Below, in pieces: positions 15,639-34,812 of a stretch of 64,000 nt of DNA. The stretch covers positions 1 to 64,000 of the forward strand of contig NC_012030.1 of assembly GCF_000022205.1 (NCBI RefSeq). Direction: 5' to 3'. Within the stretch, counting starts at the first letter, position 1. Each line of letters begins with the position of its first letter. Both the position numbers and the translations under genes were made by a program. This DNA is from Halorubrum lacusprofundi ATCC 49239 (GTDB taxonomy: Archaea > Halobacteriota > Halobacteria > Halobacteriales > Haloferacaceae). The notes below the pieces were generated by a model. That model saw nothing but the letters and a program-made list of their open reading frames with translations. It made no database searches and was not told the origin of the DNA.

Positions 15639-15851
15639 TCTTTGATATCTCACTGCATTGCTGTTGTGGTCTTTCCGATGCGGAATTCCTGTTCGTAACG
15701 TATCCTCGGGCGTTGTCGATGATCGTGAATCGATTGGACGAGGACACGTCGACCGACTACGCAAACAACTGTTTCACAAACTACAAGATATTTACAGAGA
15801 TCGTGCTTCCGGGGAGGCATGGACGACCGCCGCTCGGGTGATGGGGTCTCG

Positions 15852-16454
15852 ATGAACCAGAATATAGACCGCCGTGGCCTGCTTGCTGTGACTGGAATGG
15901 CCGCAGCCGCCGCACTCGCTGGCTGTACTGTGGGTGCTCCACGAAACACTACGACGGACGAACCCCAAGATGCAACCGATGGGCCACCAGCCAACGCCCC
16001 CATGAGATCACTGACCGAAGGATCGCCCTCGTCGACGAACGAACGCATGGCCGAACTCGTCGCTGGCAATGCGGGATTCGCACTCGATCTCCACGAACAA
16101 CTCACAACAGCCGATGACGTCGACAACGTGTTCGTCTCACCCTACAGCATCTCGATGGCACTTGCGATGACCTATGGGGGTGCAGGTGGTGAGACCGAGA
16201 CCGCAATGCGAGAGACACTCGGATTTTCACTTCGTGAGGAGACCCATCCTGCCTTTGGCGAGCTGCAAGCAGCACTTGATACGAGAGCCACGACAGACGT
16301 ACCGGGTGGCTCTGACAAGGAGACAATCGATGCCTTCCAACTCGAAGTTGCCAACGCTCTGTGGGGTTCGACCGACTACCCCTTCGCCGAGGCAACCGAC
16401 GGTCGAATCGAAGCCCTGATTCCCGAAGACGGTACTGTCTTCTCAAACGACTGA
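15852..16454 (+). pseudogene. Serpin-family Tat lipoprotein with internal and C-terminal deletion
   Basis: The ATG at 15852 gives a Tat lipoprotein signal (NIDRRGLLAVTG, then a lipobox LAGC). After an acidic linker comes the serpin N-terminal half, with the diagnostic NVFVSPYSISMALAMTYGG and ETETAMRETLGF. Sequence is serpin-like to NALWGSTDYPFAEA, then jumps to DGRIEALIPEDGTVF, which in a normal serpin lies about 60 residues later, and stops soon after. The beta-sheet core and the reactive-centre loop are missing (200 residues against about 400), so it cannot inhibit proteases. An in-frame internal deletion plus early stop is the simplest reading. Confidence 0.75.
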
Positions 16455-20710: not shown

Positions 20711-20913
20711 CGTCAGTTTTTGGATCGACTATCTGTATCAGTTCGTCGCTCTTCGTATACTAACTTGGCTGTTGGCTCACAGTGTACGGAAGTGGATTGG
20801 GCGTATGAATCGCCTACACTACCCACTAAGCATCAATACGAGATGTAACCGGGGCTGCGAGACAGTCTAAGTAAAGACTATATTGTTGGGCTGACGAATC
20901 CACGTCATCACTA

Positions 20914-21105
20914 ATGACTCGGAAACAGGTTGGGCGTAACACCGGGAATTCAGGCCGGATCAATGTTTCCGGGTCTGAACTGGAAGAACTCGGCATCGAC
21001 ATCGGCGATGCGGTTGACGTGGACGTCGTTGATGCCAAAGAAGTCGCCCATGCAATCATCGACAGCAAAGACGCAGAAGAATTCCTAATCGTCACCCCCG
21101 CTTAA
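20914..21105 (+). CDS. AbrB/SpoVT-like small DNA-binding protein
   Basis: 63 residues with the swapped-hairpin look of AbrB/SpoVT proteins: GRINVSGSELEELGIDIGD, then a strand VDVDVVDA and a C-terminal tail. AbrB-fold proteins act as dimeric repressors or antitoxins. It sits three bases before the nuclease-methyltransferase gene and is the first gene of that operon, so a controller (C-protein-like) role is likely. The ACTATATTG stretch about 30-37 bases upstream is a plausible TATA element. Confidence 0.75.
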   Translation: MTRKQVGRNTGNSGRINVSGSELEELGIDIGDAVDVDVVDAKEVAHAIIDSKDAEEFLIVTPA

Positions 21106-21108
21106 AAC

Positions 21109-24100
21109 ATGCAAACGGCACTCACCTACCGTACGAACCGTGACCTGTTCTCGAATTACTACTTAGACGAACACCTCCCCGAGACCGAAGAATGGGACGA
21201 GGTCAGCGACGAAGAACTCCAGGAGGCCTATGATGACGTTATGGATCTCTGGGAGCGTGAGAAGGACACCGCCCCGAAGCGGAATGAGTCCCAGCTCGAA
21301 GAGAAATTCATCCGGCCGATGTTCCGGAAACTGGGGATTCCGTTCGAGGTTGAGGAGAGCACTGATCGAACGCAGCGCCGACCCGACTACGGGTTCTTCG
21401 AGACTGAAGAAGCTGCACGGGACGCCTTCGAACGCCGTGATGAGGGCGGAGACTTCTACAAGAATTCCGTCGCTGTTGCGGACGCGAAACGATGGGGCCG
21501 TCCCCTCGACACTCGCGGAAGCGGTGAACACGAACGTGACTTCGAGAACCCCAGTTACCAGATCCACGTCTACCTGCAGGAAGTGGATGCTGCACAGTGG
21601 GCTGTCCTAACCGACGGGAAGAAGTGGCGGCTGTACTACGGACCGACCAGCCACCGTCTCGACTCCTACTACGAGGTTGACCTGCCGACGATTCTGGAGA
21701 AGGGTGATCTTGAGGATTTCAAGTACTTCTACCTCTTCTTCCGTCACGAAGCATTCCTCGAAGACAGCAGCGGTGACTGCTTCCTTGACGACGTCTACGG
21801 CGAGTCCAACGTCTTCGCCCAAGAGTTGGGGGAGGACCTACAGGACAACATCTACGAGGCGATCAAGATCCTCTCTGAGGGATACCTCCAGTACCCTGAG
21901 AACGATCTTGACGAAGAGGATCTTGAACTGATTCACGATAGTTCGCTCATCTACCTGTACCGCCTCATCTTCGTCCTGTACGCCGAAGCCGAAGGCCGTG
22001 AGCTGCTGGATACAAGCAACGAGATTTACGAGCAACAGTACAGTCTGAACGCTCTCAAACAGGAAGTCGCCGAAGAACTCGATAGTGGCGATCCAAAGTA
22101 CCGTGATTGGCAAGACAACCTTCAGGCTCGTCTGGACGAACTGTTCTCGCTCATCGACAAGGGCAGCAAGTCACGTGGCATCCCCGAGGAAGACCTCTAC
22201 ATTCCGGCGTACAACGGTGGGCTGTTCCGGACCGATCCGGACGACGACGACAGCAAGGAAGCACGGTTCCTCGCCAATCACGACGTCGGCGACGCCTACC
22301 TGGCTAAGGTCGTCGAACTTCTCACCCGGAGCAAGAACAGCAACGGCGGTGGAAAGATCTTCGTCGATTACTCCTCACTCGATGTTCGCCACCTTGGGAG
22401 TATTTACGAGGGCCTCCTTGAGTACCAGCTCAATGTCGCGGATGAACCGCTGTCACTGGATGATGGCGAGTACGTGAGCGCCGGCGATGCCGACGACGTC
22501 GTCGTGCAAGAGGGCGAAGTGTACCTGACGACAGGCAGTGGTGAGCGAAAGGCCACTGGGTCGTACTACACCCCGGAGTACGTCGTCGAATACATCGTCG
22601 AAAACACGCTCGAACCGTTGGTTGACGACATCCGGGTGGACCTCGCCGGCCAGAGTGCCCGCGGTGAAGATCGCGGCTTCGCTGCGGAGTTCGCCGATCG
22701 TATATTCGACCTGAAGATCCTCGACCCGGCAATGGGGAGCGGGCACTTCCTCACGAGCGCCATCGACTACCTGGCCCGGGAGATCATCGACGCTCAGGAG
22801 CGGCAGGCTGCACAGCAGGGTATCGAGACAGTTAATCAAGAGCATGACATCAACTGGGCACGCCGGCAGGTCGCCCAGCGCTGCATCTACGGTGTGGATC
22901 TGAATCCACTCGCTGTTGAGTTGGCGAAAGTGTCGCTCTGGCTTCGGACGCTTGCCGCTGAACAGCCACTCGCGTTCCTTGACCACCACCTGAAGACTGG
23001 GAACTCGCTCGTTGGGAGTGACATTGAGGAGATCGAGGAACTGGAGTCCGAGGGTGGTGGCGACGATCAAAATGCGTCGCTCGCGGACTTCGGTGTGGCT
23101 CGGAAAGGGACGATTGAACAGTTGATGCGGATCTACGAGGACTTCATCGCTATCGAGAATCAGGAACTTGCGGACGTCAAGGAGATGGAGTCCAAGTATG
23201 ACGAGTTCGAGCGGAACAAACTCCGCCAGCGACTGGAAGCGATGGCGAACGTACACACCGCTGAGGACTTCGGACTAGATAACCTCCCTTCAGATGCGTA
23301 CCAACGGATGGCGGGCGCTTTAGAAGATGATGATGAGTGGGAGAACCTAAGTAGTTCTCAGTGGTTCATTGATGCGCAAAAGTGGGCATCTGAGGGCCAT
23401 TATTTCCACTGGAAACTTGAATATCCCGAAGTATTCTACGATAATGATGGAGATAAGAAAGGGGACAGTGGATTTGATGCAGTTATTGGAAATCCGCCAT
23501 ACATGCGAATTCAGACCATACGTCAAGCGGACGAAAGTCTACCCACTTACTTCGAGACGGAGTTTAACTCTTCGTATAAGAATTATGATATTTATGCGCT
23601 ATTTATTGAAAAAGGGCACTCTCTGCTGAGCAAAGATGGTGAGCAGGGTTACATTGTACCCCATAAGTTCATGCAGGCTGAATTCGGTGAGGCTGTCCGA
23701 TCCTACGTTGCGGATCGTTCAGCACTGCGGGAAGTGGTTGATATGGGACATTATCAGGTCTTCGGCTCTGCAGCAACAACATACACCTGCCTCCTCTTCT
23801 TATCTGGACAAGATAGAGATAAGTTCTCATATAAGAAAATCAGAGAAGATCCCCGTGATCTTTCCACCCTTGATGAATCTGATCTTGCGTCCGAACGGAT
23901 TGGTGAGGAACCTTGGATTCTGCTATCCCCTGCTGAACTAGGGGCTGTGGAAAAAATGGAAGAATGCACGCCTCTTGAAGAGTTATCGGACAAGATCTTC
24001 GTGGGTATTCAAACTAGTAAAGACTCTGTCTACGCAGTCAATCTTGTTGAAGAAACAGAAGATCAGGTCACCGTCTCATCCGAAGAAACCGAGGAGGAAT

Positions 24101-25407
24101 ATGAATTCTCTAAGGAGATACTTGTTCCTTATCTCAAAGGTGAAGACGTAAATCGATACGAGACTCCTGAGAATCGTAAAGTCTTGATATTCCCGTATCA
24201 CACCTCTGAGGATGGATATTCCTTGATGTCTCCTCAAGAGATTAAGAGTAAATCACCGAAAGTTTGGGACTACCTGTTGGAGAATCGGTCTGTTCTGGAA
24301 AGTCGGGATGGAGGAAGTATGGATGGAGATGATTGGTATGCGTATACCTATCCAAAAAGCCTCCACGAACATGAAAAAGAGAAAATCATCACTCCAGAGA
24401 TTAGTGATAACTGTAGTTTCACGCTAGACAGTCGTGGGAACTATTCAACCTCGGTCATTTACAGCATCACCGCTTCGGAAACAGACTATGATCTCGAATA
24501 TCTCTTGGCAGTGCTGAACTCTGCAACGACTTGGTTCTATGTCAGCAATACGAGTCATGTGTTGCGAGGGGGGTACTACCGTTTCAAAACGGGATATCTC
24601 CGGCCAATTGGTATCCCCGAAGTTGACACCGGTGAGGGAGACCTTTCAGAACTTGAGAATGTCAAAGAACGATATCAGAACCAGGAGTATGACGTAATTC
24701 GCAAACGCGCGATTGAGTTAGCAGAGGAAGGGAAAGAATCGACCGTCTACAACCTCTTGTGCTACCTCGTAAATGAGCGGATTGAGGCACAAAACCAGTA
24801 TGAATCACTCAACTTAGATCTGTCTGACCACCTTGGAAATTACTCAGAGGGGAATTCCCTACACCAGATACAAGGATATCAACCACCTTCCGATGTTTCT
24901 AATACAATTGTGTCTGAGACCAGTAGTACCCGAGATAGTCTTCGAGTCGGGCGAGTTAGTGTAGACAGGGATCGATCTAAACTCACGATCAAAGCCAGTG
25001 CCCGGTATAAGCCCGAGGATGAGGATGCATACGAAACAGATCAATGGGGATACACAGAAACAGAATTAATGCCAGCTTTGGAGTTTGTTGGCCTTGACGA
25101 GAATTATGAACAACTCATTAGCGAGTTTGTCCCTCACATCGTTAATGAACGGGATGATGGCGTTGCGAAGTTTAGAGAAAACGCTACTAAGACTAACTCA
25201 CTCGTCGATCGTTTAGAATCTCTGACTCTGCCTGTCATCTCGGATATTGAAGGTAGCTTTGATCGCTATCTTAAAATCAGAGCTAAAGCAGATGATCTTC
25301 TAACTAAGGCAGAGAACACTGATGATATTATTAATCAGGTAGTCTATCGACTCTATGGTTTGACTGATGACGAAATAGAGATTGTTGAGGCCTCTGTGTC
25401 GGAATGA
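21109..25407 (+). CDS. Type IIG-like nuclease/N6-adenine methyltransferase (Eco57I-type, DrmMI/PglX-like)
   Basis: 1432 residues. The N-terminus looks like a PD-(D/E)xK nuclease: NESQLEEKF, then RRPDYGFF and VAVADAKRW, with DAK in place of the common ExK. A helical region follows, then the methyltransferase core with a YTPEYVVEYIVE box, SAM motif I DPAMGSGHFL, the GVDLNPLAVELAK strand and catalytic NPPY (NPPYMRIQTI). The last about 600 residues should hold target recognition. Related proteins serve type IIG/IIL restriction, BREX (PglX) and DISARM (DrmMI). Base composition turns clearly A+T-rich after about 23290, within the gene, suggesting a swapped specificity half. Overlaps the helicase start by 4 bases. 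Confidence 0.88.
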   Translation: MQTALTYRTNRDLFSNYYLDEHLPETEEWDEVSDEELQEAYDDVMDLWEREKDTAPKRNESQLEEKFIRPMFRKLGIPFEVEESTDRTQRRPDYGFFETEEAARDAFERRDEGGDFYKNSVAVADAKRWGRPLDTRGSGEHERDFENPSYQIHVYLQEVDAAQWAVLTDGKKWRLYYGPTSHRLDSYYEVDLPTILEKGDLEDFKYFYLFFRHEAFLEDSSGDCFLDDVYGESNVFAQELGEDLQDNIYEAIKILSEGYLQYPENDLDEEDLELIHDSSLIYLYRLIFVLYAEAEGRELLDTSNEIYEQQYSLNALKQEVAEELDSGDPKYRDWQDNLQARLDELFSLIDKGSKSRGIPEEDLYIPAYNGGLFRTDPDDDDSKEARFLANHDVGDAYLAKVVELLTRSKNSNGGGKIFVDYSSLDVRHLGSIYEGLLEYQLNVADEPLSLDDGEYVSAGDADDVVVQEGEVYLTTGSGERKATGSYYTPEYVVEYIVENTLEPLVDDIRVDLAGQSARGEDRGFAAEFADRIFDLKILDPAMGSGHFLTSAIDYLAREIIDAQERQAAQQGIETVNQEHDINWARRQVAQRCIYGVDLNPLAVELAKVSLWLRTLAAEQPLAFLDHHLKTGNSLVGSDIEEIEELESEGGGDDQNASLADFGVARKGTIEQLMRIYEDFIAIENQELADVKEMESKYDEFERNKLRQRLEAMANVHTAEDFGLDNLPSDAYQRMAGALEDDDEWENLSSSQWFIDAQKWASEGHYFHWKLEYPEVFYDNDGDKKGDSGFDAVIGNPPYMRIQTIRQADESLPTYFETEFNSSYKNYDIYALFIEKGHSLLSKDGEQGYIVPHKFMQAEFGEAVRSYVADRSALREVVDMGHYQVFGSAATTYTCLLFLSGQDRDKFSYKKIREDPRDLSTLDESDLASERIGEEPWILLSPAELGAVEKMEECTPLEELSDKIFVGIQTSKDSVYAVNLVEETEDQVTVSSEETEEEYEFSKEILVPYLKGEDVNRYETPENRKVLIFPYHTSEDGYSLMSPQEIKSKSPKVWDYLLENRSVLESRDGGSMDGDDWYAYTYPKSLHEHEKEKIITPEISDNCSFTLDSRGNYSTSVIYSITASETDYDLEYLLAVLNSATTWFYVSNTSHVLRGGYYRFKTGYLRPIGIPEVDTGEGDLSELENVKERYQNQEYDVIRKRAIELAEEGKESTVYNLLCYLVNERIEAQNQYESLNLDLSDHLGNYSEGNSLHQIQGYQPPSDVSNTIVSETSSTRDSLRVGRVSVDRDRSKLTIKASARYKPEDEDAYETDQWGYTETELMPALEFVGLDENYEQLISEFVPHIVNERDDGVAKFRENATKTNSLVDRLESLTLPVISDIEGSFDRYLKIRAKADDLLTKAENTDDIINQVVYRLYGLTDDEIEIVEASVSE

Positions 25408-28370
25408 CTGACTTCGAGGTTGGCGACCACGTCAAGTTCGCCGGCGGACAGGGCGAGATCACGAAAATCGAAGACCGCCCGAATGGAGGCCAGCTCCTCC
25501 ACGTATACACCACGGAGGGTGAACTCCGAAAACTCCCGAGTGGCCTGCCCCATATCGAGCGGATCGACTCTATCATTGACCGCCTCGCAGCCCGACAGAT
25601 CGATTCGCCCATCCACCATGACCTTCGGGAACGTGCGACCCGCCTCGATCTCGCGTACCGATACGACCGGTTCCTGTCGCTGACGAACAACCGTATCGAG
25701 ATCGAGCCGTATCAGGTTCAGGCCGCCTACGAGATCCTGAACTCGTACGATCACCGCTACCTGATCGGGGACGAAGTCGGTCTCGGGAAGACTATCGAAG
25801 CCGGCATCGTTATTGAGGAACTCATCGCCCGTGGTCGTGCCGAGCGGGTGCTTATCGTCGCACCAGCGCCACTCACCGTGCAGTGGCAGGAGGAGATGCG
25901 CGAGAAGTTTGATCGTAACTTCGTCATTTACGACCGTGAAACCGTAGAAAACCACCGTCAGTCCCACCCAAACCAGAACGTCTGGGAGCAAGAGGATCTC
26001 ATCATCACCTCAATCGATTTCGCTAAGCAAACGAACGATGACCCCGAGTCGGACAGGGTCTCGGTTCGTGATGCGCTCGATAATCTCAACGAGTCTTGGG
26101 ACGTCGCCGTTTTTGACGAGGCACACCACCTGACTGCTCGCCGGGGAAGCGACGACTCCATCGAACGCACCCAGCGTTACACTGTTGGTGAAGCCGTCGC
26201 CGAAAATTCCGACGCGCTCCTGTTGATGACCGGAACCCCTCACAAAGGGAAGTCCGATCAGTTCTACTTCCTCGTGAGTTTGCTTGATCCATATCGCTTC
26301 AGCCACGAGTCACAGATCAATCCAGACGCACTGGATGATCTGATGATTCGCCGGCTGAAGGACGACATGCACGACACCGACGGGACGCGCATGTTCCCCG
26401 AGAAGAACATCGAAGCGCTCGGTGTGGATATGTCCCGGGCTGAGCGGAAGCTCTACGACGACGTCACTGAGTACATCCGCGAGTACTACAATCTCGCTCA
26501 ACAGGAGGAGAACCAAGCCGCAGGGTTCACGATGGTCATTTACCAGAAGCGGCTGGTCTCCAGCATCTACGCGATTCAGAAGTCTCTGGAGAACCGAATG
26601 CGCGCCATCCAGAACGACGCTGTTGCCGAAGATCTTCCCGACGACGTCCAGCAGTTGATCCCCCGGTATAGCACCGAACCCGAGACACTGACCGACACCG
26701 AACGTGAGCGCATCGAAGAGGCCCTGGAAACGGTCACGGTCACACTGAATCGTTCGCAGATACAGGAAGAACTTGATCGGGTGAAGCAGCTCTGGCAGCA
26801 GGCCAAGAGCATCCAGACTGATTCGAAGGCCCAGCTGCTCAAGCAGTTTATCGATCGCATCCTGTCCAACGACCCTGATGAGAAAATACTCATCTTCACA
26901 GAGTACACGGACACGCTCGAATACCTCCGAGACAGGGTGTTCGACGATCACGATATCGCCCAAGTCTACGGCGACTTAGACCAAGATCGACGGCGGGAAG
27001 AGATGGAGAAGTTCGAGAATGAGGCCAACTTGATGCTCGCCACCGACGCGGCACAGGAGGGTCTCAACCTCCAGTTCGCCCACATCATGGTCAACTATGA
27101 CCTCCCGTGGAACCCGATCCGGATCGATCAGCGAATGGGGCGTCTCCACCGCTACGGGCAGGAACGAACCGTAGAGATTCGGAATCTTTTCTTCAAGAAC
27201 ACCCGAGAGAGCGAGATTCTGAACCTGCTGGTTGAGAAGACGAACCAGATTGAGTCCGACCTCGGGATGCGTTCGGATGTTCTCGGTCGGGTGCTGGAAG
27301 ACGTCGATCTCGATGACACGATCATGGCCGCCATCGCCGAAGATCGTCCCTCCGATGAAGTTGTCGCCGACATCGACGAGGCCATCGAAGAACGGAAGAA
27401 TGCACTGGAGACCGTGGAAAACGAGTTCCTCATCCGGAACCGATTCGACCTCTCCGACGAGGACGAGGAGATTCTCGATGTAATTGAGCGAAGTCAACAC
27501 GGCGACGTCAGTGAGGACGACATCGAAGTGCTCGTCCGCGAGTTCTTCGACGAATTCGGCGGCGACATTCGAGGTGTTCGTCCTGGTCCGGCCCGTGCTG
27601 GCGGAGACGTGTTCCAGCTTGACGTTCCAGATGTCCTCTGCGGCAACCAGGTTGCAGGACGATACGACCAGGCGACGTTCACTCGCCAGGTAGCGATGGA
27701 AGAGGACGACGTCGAGTTCATCGCATTGGATCACCCGCTCGTGCAGTCGCTTATCGAGTTCTGTCTGGACTCGAATCGCATCGGGGGACAGGTCGCTGTG
27801 AAGGTCGCAGAGGACGGCGAACCCACACCCGGAATCCTATTCACGTACCGCCTGGGATACGTCTCTGGGGCGGGAGAGGCAGTCACCGAGAAACTGGTTC
27901 CGCTCTACGTCACGGCTGAAGGCGACGTGAGGACAGAGAAGCCGGAGTTCGTGGACACGGTCCCGCCAGAGGAGGTCGTCTCGACACCGCCCCTCGACCG
28001 ACTTACGTCGATGGCAGAAGACCTGCACAGTGTCGCGGAGATGGAAGCGTGGGAGCAAGTCGAATCGTTTGCCGGCGAAGCACGTGAGGAACGGGAACGA
28101 GAGGTAGAGATCAAGCGGCAACACGCCGAGCAACACTTCGAGGAGGAGATCAGCGAATGGAAGGACCGCCTTGAGGATTATCAACAGCAGGACGAGCAAG
28201 GGAAAGACATGTCGGCACCAATCGGGAACGCGAAACGCCAACTTGAGTCGCTTCGTCGTGAGCGCGACGAGGAATTATTCCGATTGGAGGAAGAAAAGCA
28301 CGTCACCCCAGAAGAACCGCAGTTGGTGACTGCGTCCTTCGTCCTCGGCAGTCCTCCAGGTGACCGATGA
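25404..28370 (+). CDS. SNF2-type DEAH helicase (DrmD/RapA-like)
   Basis: 988 residues. A small N-terminal beta domain (VGDHVKFAGGQGEITKIED) precedes helicase domain 1, with Walker A GDEVGLGKTIEAG (Lys 129), motif Ia VAPAPLTVQW and the DEAH box at 238-241. Helicase domain 2 carries IFTEYTDTLEYL, LATDAAQEGLNLQ and motif VI QRMGRLHRYGQ. A long C-terminal region ends in coiled-coil-like charged helices. It resembles DISARM DrmD and bacterial RapA-like translocases. Start and stop overlap both neighbours, so it should be made with the methyltransferase and the TBP and probably moves along DNA for that system. Confidence 0.88.
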   Translation: MTDFEVGDHVKFAGGQGEITKIEDRPNGGQLLHVYTTEGELRKLPSGLPHIERIDSIIDRLAARQIDSPIHHDLRERATRLDLAYRYDRFLSLTNNRIEIEPYQVQAAYEILNSYDHRYLIGDEVGLGKTIEAGIVIEELIARGRAERVLIVAPAPLTVQWQEEMREKFDRNFVIYDRETVENHRQSHPNQNVWEQEDLIITSIDFAKQTNDDPESDRVSVRDALDNLNESWDVAVFDEAHHLTARRGSDDSIERTQRYTVGEAVAENSDALLLMTGTPHKGKSDQFYFLVSLLDPYRFSHESQINPDALDDLMIRRLKDDMHDTDGTRMFPEKNIEALGVDMSRAERKLYDDVTEYIREYYNLAQQEENQAAGFTMVIYQKRLVSSIYAIQKSLENRMRAIQNDAVAEDLPDDVQQLIPRYSTEPETLTDTERERIEEALETVTVTLNRSQIQEELDRVKQLWQQAKSIQTDSKAQLLKQFIDRILSNDPDEKILIFTEYTDTLEYLRDRVFDDHDIAQVYGDLDQDRRREEMEKFENEANLMLATDAAQEGLNLQFAHIMVNYDLPWNPIRIDQRMGRLHRYGQERTVEIRNLFFKNTRESEILNLLVEKTNQIESDLGMRSDVLGRVLEDVDLDDTIMAAIAEDRPSDEVVADIDEAIEERKNALETVENEFLIRNRFDLSDEDEEILDVIERSQHGDVSEDDIEVLVREFFDEFGGDIRGVRPGPARAGGDVFQLDVPDVLCGNQVAGRYDQATFTRQVAMEEDDVEFIALDHPLVQSLIEFCLDSNRIGGQVAVKVAEDGEPTPGILFTYRLGYVSGAGEAVTEKLVPLYVTAEGDVRTEKPEFVDTVPPEEVVSTPPLDRLTSMAEDLHSVAEMEAWEQVESFAGEAREEREREVEIKRQHAEQHFEEEISEWKDRLEDYQQQDEQGKDMSAPIGNAKRQLESLRRERDEELFRLEEEKHVTPEEPQLVTASFVLGSPPGDR

Positions 28371-28912
28371 CTGTCGAAATTGCGAACATCGTCGGCTCCG
28401 GCGATCTTGGCGTGGAGCTGGATCTCGAAGCATTGGAAGGCGACTTGTCTACACCGTACTTGGAGTACGACCCGTCGAATTACCACGGTCTTTACGTTCG
28501 TCTCGAAGAAGGTGGGCCGCTCATCACAGTCTATCGGAGCGGGAAGTACATCATCAGCGGCTGCCCCAGTGAGGAGGTACTACGCAAGACGAACGATGGA
28601 TTCCTGAGAGCCCTCGCAGAGTTGGGAATCACCGACGAAGCTCAACAGACCGGGTTCACTGTCCAGAACGTGGTCTGTACTGCGATGCTCAATGAGATGG
28701 TTTCTCTGAATGCTCTCTCAATCGGGTTGGGGTTGGAAGTAACGGAGTATGAGCCGGAGCAGTTCCCGGGTCTGGTTTATCGGCCCGAGGGCATCGGTGC
28801 TGTACTACTAGTGTTCGCTAACGGGAAGCTGGTGATTACAGGTGCGAAGGATGCCGAGACCGCCGAAGTAGCGTACAATCACCTTCAGTCGAAGGTACAG
28901 GAACTAGTGTAG
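28367..28912 (+). CDS. TATA-box-binding protein (divergent) in a defence operon
   Basis: 181 residues with the two direct repeats of a TBP saddle: repeat 1 from IANIVGSGDLGVELDLEALE through ITVYRSGKYIISGC, repeat 2 from FTVQNVVCTAMLNEMVSLN through LLVFANGKLVITGA. The length equals a normal archaeal TBP, but several usual residues differ, for example a shortened first-repeat stirrup. It overlaps the helicase stop by 4 bases, so it belongs to that operon. It may give the operon its own transcription, act as a DNA-bending subunit, or detect takeover of host transcription. Haloarchaea carry several TBPs, but one coupled to a nuclease-methyltransferase is unusual. Confidence 0.85.
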   Translation: MTVEIANIVGSGDLGVELDLEALEGDLSTPYLEYDPSNYHGLYVRLEEGGPLITVYRSGKYIISGCPSEEVLRKTNDGFLRALAELGITDEAQQTGFTVQNVVCTAMLNEMVSLNALSIGLGLEVTEYEPEQFPGLVYRPEGIGAVLLVFANGKLVITGAKDAETAEVAYNHLQSKVQELV

Positions 28913-28931: not shown

Positions 28932-30731
28932 TCAGCTGAAGGTGCTGATGATGTGGTCTCGAAGCATCTCCTCGCGTCGCTCGATGAATTCGGGGAAGTT
29001 CTCTAGTTCGTACAGACGCTCGTCAGTCGGGATGTGATGGCGGTCGTAGTACTGGTCACTCCGCGTTGAAATCCACTCATCGAACGCTTGGTCGCCTTTC
29101 GATTGGTTCTCCTCAATCAACTGGAGGTTCGCAACGTGATCACGCAGGGAAGCGTACCGCTCGGCCTTACTCGGCTCGAATCCGTAGTTCTCGATGAGGT
29201 TGTCTTTTTCAAGGAGACTCCGCGGGAAAATGTGGTCAATTTCGTATGAATCGTCGTGGGCAGGGTCTGGGTAGTAGAGGACCGACAAGAGCAGGTAGAT
29301 CTTCGTGCTGTTGTAGTCCGTTTCCTCGAACAGGTCTTCTACGATTTCCTGGCTGAAGCCAACGGCTTTCCCACGCGTCCTGATTTCACGCTGAATCCGT
29401 TCTAGTGGGAACTGACTATCGTCCGCCTCTTTGATGGCATCACGTGCGTCCTCGATGATCTGGTCTGGCCGGGAGTTGAAGTTGCTGTTGAGGAGCGCAG
29501 AGCAGAGCCATTCGAGGATTCGCGGACGAACCTGCACACCGAGTTGAGAATCCGTCGTCAGGGAGGGATTCTCGTTGTGGTAGAAGTAGAAGACTAACGG
29601 GATGAGCGCATTCCGGCTCGTCAGGCTTCGGCCGGTGATACCGAAGTCGCTAATCAGGTCTACGGTGGACTCAATCGCATCTTGAACGACTCCGTTCGCC
29701 CAGATCTCTTTCATCAACGCCAGGTTCTCGTGCGTGAATGTGCGGATCTGGTACTCGGCGGAGAGGTCAGCGACAACGAGGAGGGATTTCAGGACGAAGT
29801 CGCTACCGAAGTCGTAGCCCTCGTCCACATACGCCTGATTAAGGTTTCCGACGAAGCTGTTGATCTCTTCCTTTGCGTCAATGGGGTTCTCTTCATCTGA
29901 CCCCCAGTACGACGTGGCAATAGAGAGGAGGATTTCGGACTTGCTGAGTTGCGTACCACCTTCGTTCGCCCGGACGAAGATATCCAGAATTCGCTCGTTA
30001 TCTTGGTTTCCTTCCTCGTAGTAGTTCACGATGTCTCGGGCGTGAACAGCATTGTAGAGAGTGGTGAGGTTCTTGAGGATGTAGTGCTCCTGTGCATCGG
30101 AGACTCCCTCTAACTCGGATGCGATTTCGTTCGCCCGGGTCATCGCCTTCTCCAGCGTATCGATCTCCAGAATGTCGCCGACACGGAACCAGTATTCCTC
30201 ACCAGACTGTGTCGGATCGGGCTCCTTGAATCTGAAGTCGTATCGGAGCTTCAGATGGTCCTCAGTCTGGTTGTTAGGGTTCGAGAGCAAGTTGAGATAC
30301 AGCTGTTTACGCGTCCAGGCGTCGGGATTCTTCCGTTGCCGGTACTTCTGCTTCTCAACGTATGTTCCTTGGAGCCCGATGTAGAAGGAGGAAAGGCGCT
30401 GCTGGCCGTCAACGACGAGTGAAACGGAGTCCGGGATTTGCTCGTATTCGGGGACCTTCGGATTCCGGTGGTGAACGTTGTCGAAATCGTCTGGGTAGAT
30501 GCTATCCTCGATGTGATTTCGGACGAAGTAGTACTTGATCTGGTTGTCTGCGAACTCTCCGTTGAGGTTCCAGAAAATGAACGACCCGATAGGGTACTCG
30601 CGGAGAACGGAATCGAAGAGTTGAACGATCTGTTCGGTATCCCAGACGAACTCCCGCTGGATTGCCGGCAGAAAGATGGACTCGTTTATGTCCGGTAGAA
30701 CTTGCTTGATTGTCCGAGACTGATAACCCAT
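28932..30731 (-). CDS. DUF262/DUF1524 protein, GmrSD-like nuclease
   Basis: 599 residues. The N-terminal DUF262 domain has FLPAIQREFVWDTEQIVQLF, the YPIGSFIFW segment and the nucleotide-binding VVDGQQRLSSFY. A long helical middle leads to a C-terminal DUF1524-like HNH region with YEIDHIFPRSLL and a downstream NLQLIEENQSKGDQ. GmrSD-family enzymes cut modified (for example glucosylated) phage DNA using NTP. The gene converges on the methyltransferase-helicase-TBP operon with 19 bases between stops. Cutting foreign modified DNA would complement host modification, but the two units could be independent. Confidence 0.85.
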   Translation of the reverse strand: MGYQSRTIKQVLPDINESIFLPAIQREFVWDTEQIVQLFDSVLREYPIGSFIFWNLNGEFADNQIKYYFVRNHIEDSIYPDDFDNVHHRNPKVPEYEQIPDSVSLVVDGQQRLSSFYIGLQGTYVEKQKYRQRKNPDAWTRKQLYLNLLSNPNNQTEDHLKLRYDFRFKEPDPTQSGEEYWFRVGDILEIDTLEKAMTRANEIASELEGVSDAQEHYILKNLTTLYNAVHARDIVNYYEEGNQDNERILDIFVRANEGGTQLSKSEILLSIATSYWGSDEENPIDAKEEINSFVGNLNQAYVDEGYDFGSDFVLKSLLVVADLSAEYQIRTFTHENLALMKEIWANGVVQDAIESTVDLISDFGITGRSLTSRNALIPLVFYFYHNENPSLTTDSQLGVQVRPRILEWLCSALLNSNFNSRPDQIIEDARDAIKEADDSQFPLERIQREIRTRGKAVGFSQEIVEDLFEETDYNSTKIYLLLSVLYYPDPAHDDSYEIDHIFPRSLLEKDNLIENYGFEPSKAERYASLRDHVANLQLIEENQSKGDQAFDEWISTRSDQYYDRHHIPTDERLYELENFPEFIERREEMLRDHIISTFS

Positions 30732-33011: not shown

Positions 33012-33599
33012 CTAGTAGACCCGTGTGAGAACACGTTGCCGCTTCTTGCAGCTACGACATTCGCCACACGCGGTGTTGGATGCTGTACAAGAATGCGTCC
33101 ATCCAAGGAGTGATTCAGGTGGGTTCACTTCGCATACGAACTCTTCAGTTGTTCTATCGATTGCCGGGGCCACAACGCCGAGATCTCCCTCTTGGAAAGA
33201 GAGAAGCGAATCCATCAACTCGAAGAATTCTGCCTCCCCATCAGCATGGCTCTGATCGTCAGCAACTGCCCCAACAAGCAATCGGTCTGCGCCTCGTCGA
33301 ACGACTTTCATTGCGACCAGTGTGACCACGAGTTGGTTTCGGTATGGCCACCACTCCGGAGCATCACCAAGGTCGGTCTCCTGCTGGCCCGCCATTGTAC
33401 CAGCACCGAGATTCTCACAATCTACTTCGATGACCTCATGCTCAAGATTCAGCTGATCGGCGATTTGCGCTGACGCTTGGATCTCTGCATCCGCACAGCA
33501 CTGCCCGTAATCAACAGTCACTGTAAGATCTGGCCTATGGGTGTACGCGAGTGTCGCAGAGTCAAGCCCACCAGATAACAATAGGACGGATTCAGGCAT
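33012..33599 (-). CDS. QueC-like 7-cyano-7-deazaguanine synthase-family protein
   Basis: 195 residues from the ATG at 33599, which overlaps the upstream stop by 8 bases and removes a 6-residue extension. The N-type ATP-pyrophosphatase loop is LLSGGLDS (residues 7-14), a central WPYRNQLVVTLVA matches the QueC core, and a zinc site is formed by Cys 171, 178, 181 and 184. QueC makes preQ0 for archaeosine. Here no preQ0 or tRNA genes are nearby; instead it ends an operon with a PfkB/deoxyribosyltransferase fusion and a Gly-led acidic protein. QueC-like enzymes serve the QatABCD and type IV CBASS defence systems, so a defence role is more likely than tRNA modification. Confidence 0.85.
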   Translation of the reverse strand: MPESVLLLSGGLDSATLAYTHRPDLTVTVDYGQCCADAEIQASAQIADQLNLEHEVIEVDCENLGAGTMAGQQETDLGDAPEWWPYRNQLVVTLVAMKVVRRGADRLLVGAVADDQSHADGEAEFFELMDSLLSFQEGDLGVVAPAIDRTTEEFVCEVNPPESLLGWTHSCTASNTACGECRSCKKRQRVLTRVY

Positions 33600-34812
33600 A
33601 CGCCCTCCAGATCGCATTATAGATTGCAGACGACAGATCCTCGTACACCTTACACCCGGAGCCGCGAATCATGGTTTCACTGCCCATCTCGAAATCATTC
33701 GCATACCCGATAACTGGTGTCCCCTCCTTCCGGGCATATCCCACTTCAAAGTGCGTTCCAGAATCCAAATGATCCAATAACGCGAACACGAGATCTGACC
33801 GTTCAATTGCGTCTAAATCTTGCTGCGCTACCTCCTCTGGACTGTCGTAGTCAGCGGCTCGACCAATATCGTGAACGGGAGAAATCACGTCAGCTCCCTC
33901 GCTTTCCAGGAGGTGTTTGACCTCTTCGACAACGTAGCGCTCGCCAATGTCGAAGAATGGGCCTGCCAGATAGATCGTCGGAGGGGTAGCATCCGGTGAG
34001 ATGAATGTCGGTGAAGCACTGTTGGGTACTGATTCGACGACCGCTCTGGAAATTGGCAGGCTGCGGTGTCTACAGAACGTTGCTGTCGCCTTTGAAGCGG
34101 TTAGTGCAGCGTCTGCGGCATCTTCACCGTTTTCTGCCCACTCCCCAGCAAAGACCGCACTGAACACATCTCCACTTCCGATTCCCCACACAGACTCCGT
34201 CTGAAAAACAGGAATTTTGGTCGTTATACCGGATGTTCTGACAATTGCCCCTTTCGCTCCCCGCTTGAGGACGACTACGTCTGCGGCAGTCGTACCTGCC
34301 ATGAGTTCTGTGAAAATCGATTCTAAGTCGTCTTCTCCAGCCAGTTGCTCGGCTTCGTTTCGGTTGAGGATGAGGGCGAGTTCATCGGCAGTTGAGCCAT
34401 TTTCATTGAACGGGACGGGAGACGCTGATTGAGGATCATAGACGACGCGCTTACCGGAAACAATCGCGGTCCCTTCAACCAGTCCGAATCGCAAGATTGC
34501 GTCTCCACTAACTCCTGAAAGTTTGCGGTTATAGTTGGCTGCCTCGGCCGGAGAGAGCACAGGGTTCGAGTGATTATGCAAATAGTCGAAGCTGACCGTC
34601 TCCGGGATTTCGGTGGTGGTGACGTCGAAGTTAAACGTGGCCGCGTAGGTTTCGAGTGTCTCTTTGTCGGCAGGGCCGATGCAGGTGTGGAGTTGGTTAC
34701 GAGAGGAGACCGTGGTCTCAGTAGCTGCGGCTGCTCGTATACCTGATCCGAAGAAAGCTGAGTCCGGAGGAAACTGGCACAACTCGTGGTACGCGCCACC
34801 TGCAATAATCAT
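33592..34812 (-). CDS. PfkB-type kinase fused to nucleoside 2-deoxyribosyltransferase-like domain
   Basis: 406 residues in two domains. Residues 1-255 form a PfkB sugar/nucleoside kinase with LNRNEAEQLAG, VLKRGAKGAIV and the catalytic GIGSGDVFSAVFAGEW (Asp 215). Residues 279-404 form a nucleoside 2-deoxyribosyltransferase/NDT-like domain with IYLAGPFFDIGER and the catalytic-type GTHFEVGYA (Glu 356). The chain could phosphorylate a nucleoside and cleave or swap its base. It overlaps the acidic-protein gene (4 bases) and the QueC-like gene (8 bases). Related NDT folds occur in bacterial nucleotide-based immunity. The substrate is not visible. Confidence 0.85.
   Translation of the reverse strand: MIIAGGAYHELCQFPPDSAFFGSGIRAAAATETTVSSRNQLHTCIGPADKETLETYAATFNFDVTTTEIPETVSFDYLHNHSNPVLSPAEAANYNRKLSGVSGDAILRFGLVEGTAIVSGKRVVYDPQSASPVPFNENGSTADELALILNRNEAEQLAGEDDLESIFTELMAGTTAADVVVLKRGAKGAIVRTSGITTKIPVFQTESVWGIGSGDVFSAVFAGEWAENGEDAADAALTASKATATFCRHRSLPISRAVVESVPNSASPTFISPDATPPTIYLAGPFFDIGERYVVEEVKHLLESEGADVISPVHDIGRAADYDSPEEVAQQDLDAIERSDLVFALLDHLDSGTHFEVGYARKEGTPVIGYANDFEMGSETMIRGSGCKVYEDLSSAIYNAIWRAYA

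Follow-up and report, generated by a model that had tools for sequence, protein, structure and literature searches.

Why should an operon that resembles a restriction system encode its own TATA-binding protein (TBP)? The question is raised by a 64,000-nucleotide stretch of Halorubrum lacusprofundi ATCC 49239 (contig NC_012030.1, positions 1 to 64,000; here called the window), in which four open reading frames (ORFs) of 63, 1432, 988, and 181 amino acids lie on the forward strand and form an operon. A preliminary description had spoken of a restriction-like operon that includes a TBP gene of its own, its genes coupled by overlaps or 3-base gaps, and the ORF layout and Pfam domains bear this out. 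The operon is confirmed as real: a 3-nt gap separates the genes for the AbrB-like protein and the methyltransferase, and 4-nt ATGA overlaps join the methyltransferase gene to the helicase gene and the helicase gene to the TBP gene. Our analysis shows that its TBP is of the TbpC type, a distinct haloarchaeal clade of TBPs located beside restriction-modification (R-M) and bacteriophage exclusion (BREX) genes of many types; we propose, with a confidence just short of even, that it is a dedicated transcription factor predicted to tune the expression of immunity operons. The operon and its promoter comprise the following features.

20863 to 20884, forward strand: promoter element CAGTCTAAGTAAAGACTATATT, an inverted repeat AGTCT-N6-AGACT overlapping a TATA-like stretch.
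20914 to 21105, forward strand: AbrB/MazE-like small protein of 63 amino acids, with a sub-threshold Pfam match; the first gene is kept in more than 20 loci.
21109 to 25407, forward strand: fused nuclease-adenine methyltransferase with a target-recognition region, 1432 amino acids (Pfam Eco57I/TaqI_C/N6_Mtase; PADLOC DrmMI/REase_MTase_IIG).
25404 to 28370, forward strand: SNF2-family ATPase related to RapA, BrxHII, and DrmD, 988 amino acids (Pfam, PADLOC, NCBIfam, nearest structures).
28367 to 28912, forward strand: TbpC-type TBP, 181 amino acids (Pfam, NCBIfam, alignment columns, tree, structure model).

The 181-amino-acid protein matches the Pfam TBP family at 6.5e-42 and the NCBIfam TBP model above its cutoff, and its predicted structure is a normal two-repeat saddle (predicted local distance difference test score, pLDDT, 92.4; template modeling score of about 0.85 to 0.9 to solved TBPs). 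It lacks, however, the full set of four intercalating phenylalanines that marks a TATA-binding protein: Tyr39 and Tyr56 replace the Phe pair of the N-terminal repeat, while Phe133 and Phe150 of the C-terminal repeat are kept, giving YYFF rather than FFFF. General TBPs read FFFF at these positions, and 63 TbpC-type rows of the alignment read YYFF. The C-terminal repeat also retains the stirrup EYEPEQFPG, of which EYEPEQ is identical in 87 of 87 sequences; by homology to known structures, this segment would contact transcription factor B (TFB). A tree of 121 TBPs (IQ-TREE) separates 28 mainly general TBPs from 93 of the TbpC type with support of 99/96. A general TBP of the FFFF type is encoded separately on the host chromosome, and further paralogues are found elsewhere in the genome; that the window TBP might be the general TBP of the cell, an outcome which the preliminary description had named as one that would overturn its reading, was rejected on this ground.

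Within the TbpC-type TBPs, the close relatives of the window protein (P0001) and tbpC of Halobacterium NRC-1 form one clade (100/99). The same operon is present on pNRC100 and pNRC200 of NRC-1, where the TBP is identified as tbpC by its position and gene number (VNG5142; PMC1971269); it shares 83% identity with the window TBP, and the genes just ahead of it encode the same helicase (89% identical) and the same methyltransferase (90% over the first 697 amino acids). Judged by sequence, then, the operon TBP is the known TbpC, an identity that the preliminary description did not contain. In earlier papers tbpC was treated only as a TBP paralogue, and its genomic context is not mentioned in section 14 of a 2014 haloarchaeal survey (PMC4230888), which noted in that part many tbpC-like genes without the N-terminal Phe pair and considered them possibly nonfunctional or very specialized. 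A decaying or hitchhiking paralogue without function would fit the missing Phe pair, the several operons that have no TBP, and the reports of a deletion without phenotype and of no transcript in one strain (PMC4230888, PMC2121645). Against this stand strong purifying selection (a ratio of nonsynonymous to synonymous substitution rates, dN/dS, of about 0.1; 0.05 to 0.13 for TBPs encoded behind close relatives of the helicase, hereafter the close group), the conservation of the Tyr-Tyr replacement across sequences sharing only 45 to 55% identity, the invariant stirrup, and the repeated pairing with immunity loci. The signature, the stirrup, the low dN/dS, and the normal predicted saddle together indicate TBPs that are maintained and specialized rather than decaying, and we disfavor loss of function as a very improbable explanation. 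The NRC-1 methyltransferase gene, moreover, is split by ISH27-2, with residues 1 to 697 before the element and residues 695 onward after it (L214:3477-9052, corresponding to pNRC200 103476-109051). Because of this interruption the NRC-1 copy of the system is probably dead, and the tbpC knockout is uninformative in a strain whose methyltransferase is broken.

The association of the TBP with this operon family was examined in a sample of 392 Halobacteriales genomes, used for both helicase and TBP searches, and the order methyltransferase-helicase-TBP recurs across many genera. The helicase search recovered a close group, mostly 74 to 97% identical, and more distant groups. In the close group, about 19 loci other than the window have a TBP directly behind the helicase, and about a dozen have none, with some of their methyltransferases decayed and some intact. 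All 17 TBPs at least 61% identical to the window TBP belong to this operon family: 16 adjoin a close-group helicase, and the 17th (L217) adjoins a methyltransferase with the helicase reduced to a remnant. In three loci (L054, L056, and L072) the TBP behind a close-group helicase is only about 55% identical to that of the window; the TBPs of L054 and L072 fall in a subclade of type I loci in the tree, and that of L056 is placed there by sequence identity only. R-M types have exchanged TBPs while the place in the operon stayed the same. Enzyme-intact operons without a TBP also occur (L087, L089, L090, and L092), and in L061, L064, and L086 an additional TBP gene immediately precedes the helicase gene.

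Some of these loci contain unusual TBPs. The paired TBPs of L061 (10115-, 6601-) and L064 (2821+, 6307+) combine a YYFF protein without the N-terminal Phe pair and an FFSP protein without the C-terminal pair, as if they were complementary saddle halves. One further locus (L168:10001+) holds an FFSA TBP together with a second TBP (FHFF), and a 291-amino-acid TBP-containing gene inside a distant-group helicase operon (L078:2320+; genome G075) clusters phylogenetically with general TBPs.

Is the TBP tied to this pair of enzymes? The surroundings were retrieved for the next 37 most similar TBPs that do not adjoin a close-group helicase and for the helicase-less L217; gene calling missed the TBP of L252, which was left out, so that 37 scorable loci remained. 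An R-M profile gene lies within 1.5 kb in 29 of these 37 TbpC-like loci and in 0 of 13 control TBP loci (local profiles). Several of the remaining eight can be recognized from their size, gene order, or Pfam domains as type I, HsdR, or methyltransferase loci; L238 is a 3-kb contig, and L227 and L243 have no clear assignment. Pfam domains in 84 neighbor genes were led by N6_Mtase (24), Eco57I (21), and SWI2_SNF2 (8), followed by Methylase_S, HSDR_N, and HsdM_N (7 each) and PglZ (2), whereas the 25 families listed for 50 neighbors of other TBP paralogues included no methyltransferase. By PADLOC, the neighbors of the TbpC-like TBPs include type I subunits, type IIG enzymes, and PglX. The TBP stands between pglX and pglZ-brxL in one BREX locus (L225) and behind pglZ of a brxC-brxB-brxC-pglZ operon in another (L165). 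In the latter, a 1990-amino-acid gene (PADLOC TmtA) follows the BREX genes and the TBP, with an unmatched 213-amino-acid gene between (L165:11498-17470); L163, L164, and L167 are similar. In about 13 of the 37 loci the TBP and the R-M genes are transcribed in opposite directions from a short shared intergenic region, an arrangement common for regulators.

A proximity test gave the same picture. In a ranked protein search of 40 genomes, 24 of 84 TBP genes or fragments (about 19 loci) had an N6_Mtase or Eco57I domain no more than 7 kb away, including all ten TBPs most similar to the window TBP, which lay within 6 kb; the other 60 were more than 11 kb from a methyltransferase domain or on other contigs. 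By our own arithmetic, about 95 methyltransferase genes in about 130 Mb would place about one TBP near a methyltransferase by chance. The preliminary description had also allowed that the TBP might be a chance neighbor; this is rejected by the recurring gene order, the restriction of the 17 closest TBPs to the operon family, and these proximity counts. The link of the TBP is to haloarchaeal R-M and BREX systems generally and not to this methyltransferase-helicase pair, which goes beyond what had first been described.

This breadth bears on the idea that the restriction complex includes the TBP as a subunit that binds or bends DNA, for instance with the SNF2 ATPase acting on it or pairing with it as Mot1 does with eukaryotic TBP. 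The 4-nt overlap with the helicase gene, the stable place behind the helicase in about 20 relatives, the second TBP before the helicase in three loci, and the RapA-like nature of the ATPase would all suit such a role. Yet this TBP family is also found at type I, type IIG-like, and BREX systems that lack the helicase; TBPs have passed from one R-M type to another; L217 lost the helicase and kept the methyltransferase and the TBP; and some operons with intact enzymes have no TBP. Since the TBP accompanies systems lacking this helicase and is swapped between R-M types, the helicase does not appear to be its specific partner; the case for a Mot1-like partnership is weakened, and we regard a subunit role as improbable.

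The pairing extends to viruses. R-M genes adjoin the TBP in all three phage-record matches, which represent two distinct haloarchaeal tailed viruses, and in one viral metagenome contig from IMG/VR (L275, L276, L279, and L280): a type IIG enzyme in HRTV-9, an N4-cytosine methyltransferase with an Eco29kI endonuclease in HJTV-2, and a type IIG-like methyltransferase in L279. The presence of the same kind of TBP beside viral R-M genes would also suit an immune effector or guard, in which abnormal TFB or TATA binding damps or redirects the transcription of the invader (or of the host) or backs up a TBP hit by a virus. An invariant stirrup and C-terminal Phe pair combined with an altered N-terminal half are what an interfering TBP might be expected to show, and TBP-like proteins have been reported in the bacterial TOTE and TALON conflict systems (PMC12458937). 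A constitutive interfering TBP should be costly, however; no toxin-like or inducible feature was found, and the pairing with plain R-M operons needs no effector. We therefore consider an effector or guard unlikely.

A dedicated transcription factor for immunity operons would account better for these patterns. Because the TBP goes with many R-M types that are unrelated to one another and is swapped in place, the common need is more likely to be expression than one protein partner, and the systems lacking this helicase, the TBP swaps, and the divergent layouts lead us to favor this role. The invariant stirrup and the low dN/dS also count in its favor. Among the functions raised in the preliminary description, which also included DNA bending and guarding against viruses, selective expression is accordingly the one favored. 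In the mechanism that we propose, the enzyme pair would methylate host DNA and restrict unmethylated incoming DNA, with the SNF2 ATPase providing ATP-driven translocation for restriction. The TBP would be a basal factor cooperating with host TFB and RNA polymerase; its remodeled N-terminal half may read or occupy immunity-operon promoters while TFB binding is retained, setting the level of the operon either by activation or by damping through nonproductive occupancy, comparable to the C proteins of bacterial R-M systems. The AbrB-like protein would contribute local feedback at the palindromic promoter. We infer both the promoters on which the TBP acts and the direction of its effect.

Several observations weigh against this proposal. 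The TBP is cotranslated with the ATPase, an arrangement likewise typical of a stoichiometric component, and deletion of tbpC in NRC-1 had no phenotype (PMC2121645), although the methyltransferase gene of that strain is interrupted. The promoter palindrome is equally present in TBP-less operons, including that of genome G014, where no TbpC-type TBP occurs anywhere among the matches listed, and the promoter is unaltered in L056, whose TBP was swapped for a type I-associated one. Inspection by eye and a simple scan found no motif common to all TbpC-linked operon promoters. Because the palindrome stays whether the TBP is missing or swapped, reading or activating the operon promoter does not strictly require this TBP, and a promoter read by this TBP alone is not supported. 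The promoter comparison thus speaks in part against the TBP as an obligatory activator, while damping or tuning by the TBP would be compatible with an unchanged promoter.

The palindrome itself, AGTCT-N6-AGACT, lies about 30 to 50 nt before the first start codon, is the sole exact match in the whole genome, and is kept upstream of the operon in relatives both with and without the TBP. A likelier binder than the TBP is the 63-amino-acid protein, a probable autoregulator at this site. It had been called AbrB-like from the outset; its MazE/AbrB match is below threshold (Pfam, E 0.77), and we keep the label because of its pattern and because more than 20 loci retain the gene in this position.

The enzymes encoded between these two proteins show features of an R-M system. 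The 1432-amino-acid protein matches Pfam Eco57I (3e-38), TaqI_C (4e-14), and N6_Mtase and carries PD...DAK at residues 92 to 127, DPAMGSGHF at 539, and NPPY at 795, so that a PD-(D/E)xK nuclease, an adenine methyltransferase, and a recognition region are all in one chain, as in type IIG-like enzymes. Across 30 methyltransferase sequences the nuclease motif, DPAMGSGHF, and NPP are invariant; the recognition region (about residues 800 to 1250) is hypervariable, with identity down to 18 to 33%, and the preceding part is about 60 to 84% identical. A variable recognition region beside invariant motifs is the usual pattern of an R-M enzyme diversifying its target site, and the nuclease-methyltransferase looks functional as a family. 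The 988-amino-acid protein contains Helicase_C, SNF2-rel_dom, and RapA_C domains (Pfam), its nearest solved structures are those of RapA, and its ATPase motifs are invariant in 29 helicases.

A gene convergent with the operon adjoins its end but is not part of it.

28932 to 30731, reverse strand: GmrSD/HEC-05-type nuclease gene (profile matches), a neighbor outside the operon.

Copies 86 to 99% identical to this gene adjoin the operon in L045, L046, L049, and L135 only and are missing beside most others; this distribution suggests that gene and operon moved together. Elsewhere in the window, a QueC-like gene overlaps a fusion of PfkB and nucleoside 2-deoxyribosyltransferase (33012 to 34812), an unusual pair in the same plasmid-like region, and a serpin-like fragment (15819 to 16454) matches no more than the first 100 positions of a 370-position profile and is probably a truncated gene.

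The number of TBP genes in haloarchaea has been a puzzle from the time of the NRC-1 genome, and TbpC in particular had been set aside as perhaps nonfunctional. Recognizing TbpC-type TBPs as immunity-linked genes explains their patchy spread, offers a reason for the silent knockout in NRC-1, whose methyltransferase is broken, and gives an orphan protein a genomic home and a testable role in immunity. We found no paper in the open-license literature that links a TBP to archaeal R-M or BREX systems, and the link is unmentioned in three surveys, two of R-M and one of BREX systems (PMC6471742, PMC10609329, PMC12839542), and in the main text of a haloarchaeal virus paper (PMC8651126). It is conceivable, at somewhat less than an even chance, that basal transcription factors dedicated to immunity exist as a class in haloarchaea: a single TBP clade, remodeled in its N-terminal DNA-binding half, would serve as an exchangeable module of viruses and of type I, type IIG-like, BREX, and DISARM-like systems and would control the timing or strength of their expression. 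Should immunity operons indeed be under the control of these TBPs, a basal factor would have been recruited as a mobile restriction regulator, something of which no description was found in the papers searched.

How does the operon compare with known systems? A likeness to DISARM (defense island system associated with R-M) had been noted at the start and holds for the methyltransferase, whose best PADLOC match is DrmMI (366 bits); the helicase is closer to BrxHII (577 bits), followed by HmaA and DrmD (398 bits), and scores 453 bits against NCBIfam DrmD, below the cutoff of 610. The operon thus shares with class 1 DISARM (DrmMI and DrmD with DrmA, DrmB, and DrmC) a methyltransferase-helicase pair of related families but, as had been described, neither it nor its immediate flanks contain DrmA, DrmB, or DrmC, and the AbrB-like protein and the TBP are additions. 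PglZ and BrxC/PglY of BREX are absent from this operon, although related TBPs do occur inside BREX operons. ARMADA consists of a YprA helicase, a BrxHII/RapA-like helicase, and a PglX-like methyltransferase (PMC12458937); the present operon resembles it in combining a BrxHII/RapA-like ATPase with a large adenine methyltransferase but has no YprA-like helicase in or beside it, and it possesses an N-terminal PD-(D/E)xK motif and a TBP. Given these absences, we do not file it as DISARM, BREX, or ARMADA. As in type IIG and type ISP enzymes, nuclease, methyltransferase, and hypervariable recognition region share one chain; here, in contrast, the ATPase is a separate SNF2 protein, followed by a TBP. 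From its domains, the system is best described as an enzyme of type IIG-like build accompanied by an SNF2 ATPase in a chain of its own and, in addition, by a TBP; R-M activity is predicted for it. The bacterial TOTE and TALON systems likewise have TBP-like proteins within immunity operons but, by their description, are set apart by TPR, OB, or cold-shock proteins and effectors (PMC12458937), none of which is present here, whereas the TBPs described here are ordinary full-length archaeal TBPs. These systems are a precedent, differently built, for a TBP in immunity. The controller (C) proteins of R-M systems are small helix-turn-helix proteins, and operon-linked control of R-M expression is what we propose here as well; in the haloarchaeal operon, the predicted role would fall to a basal transcription factor.

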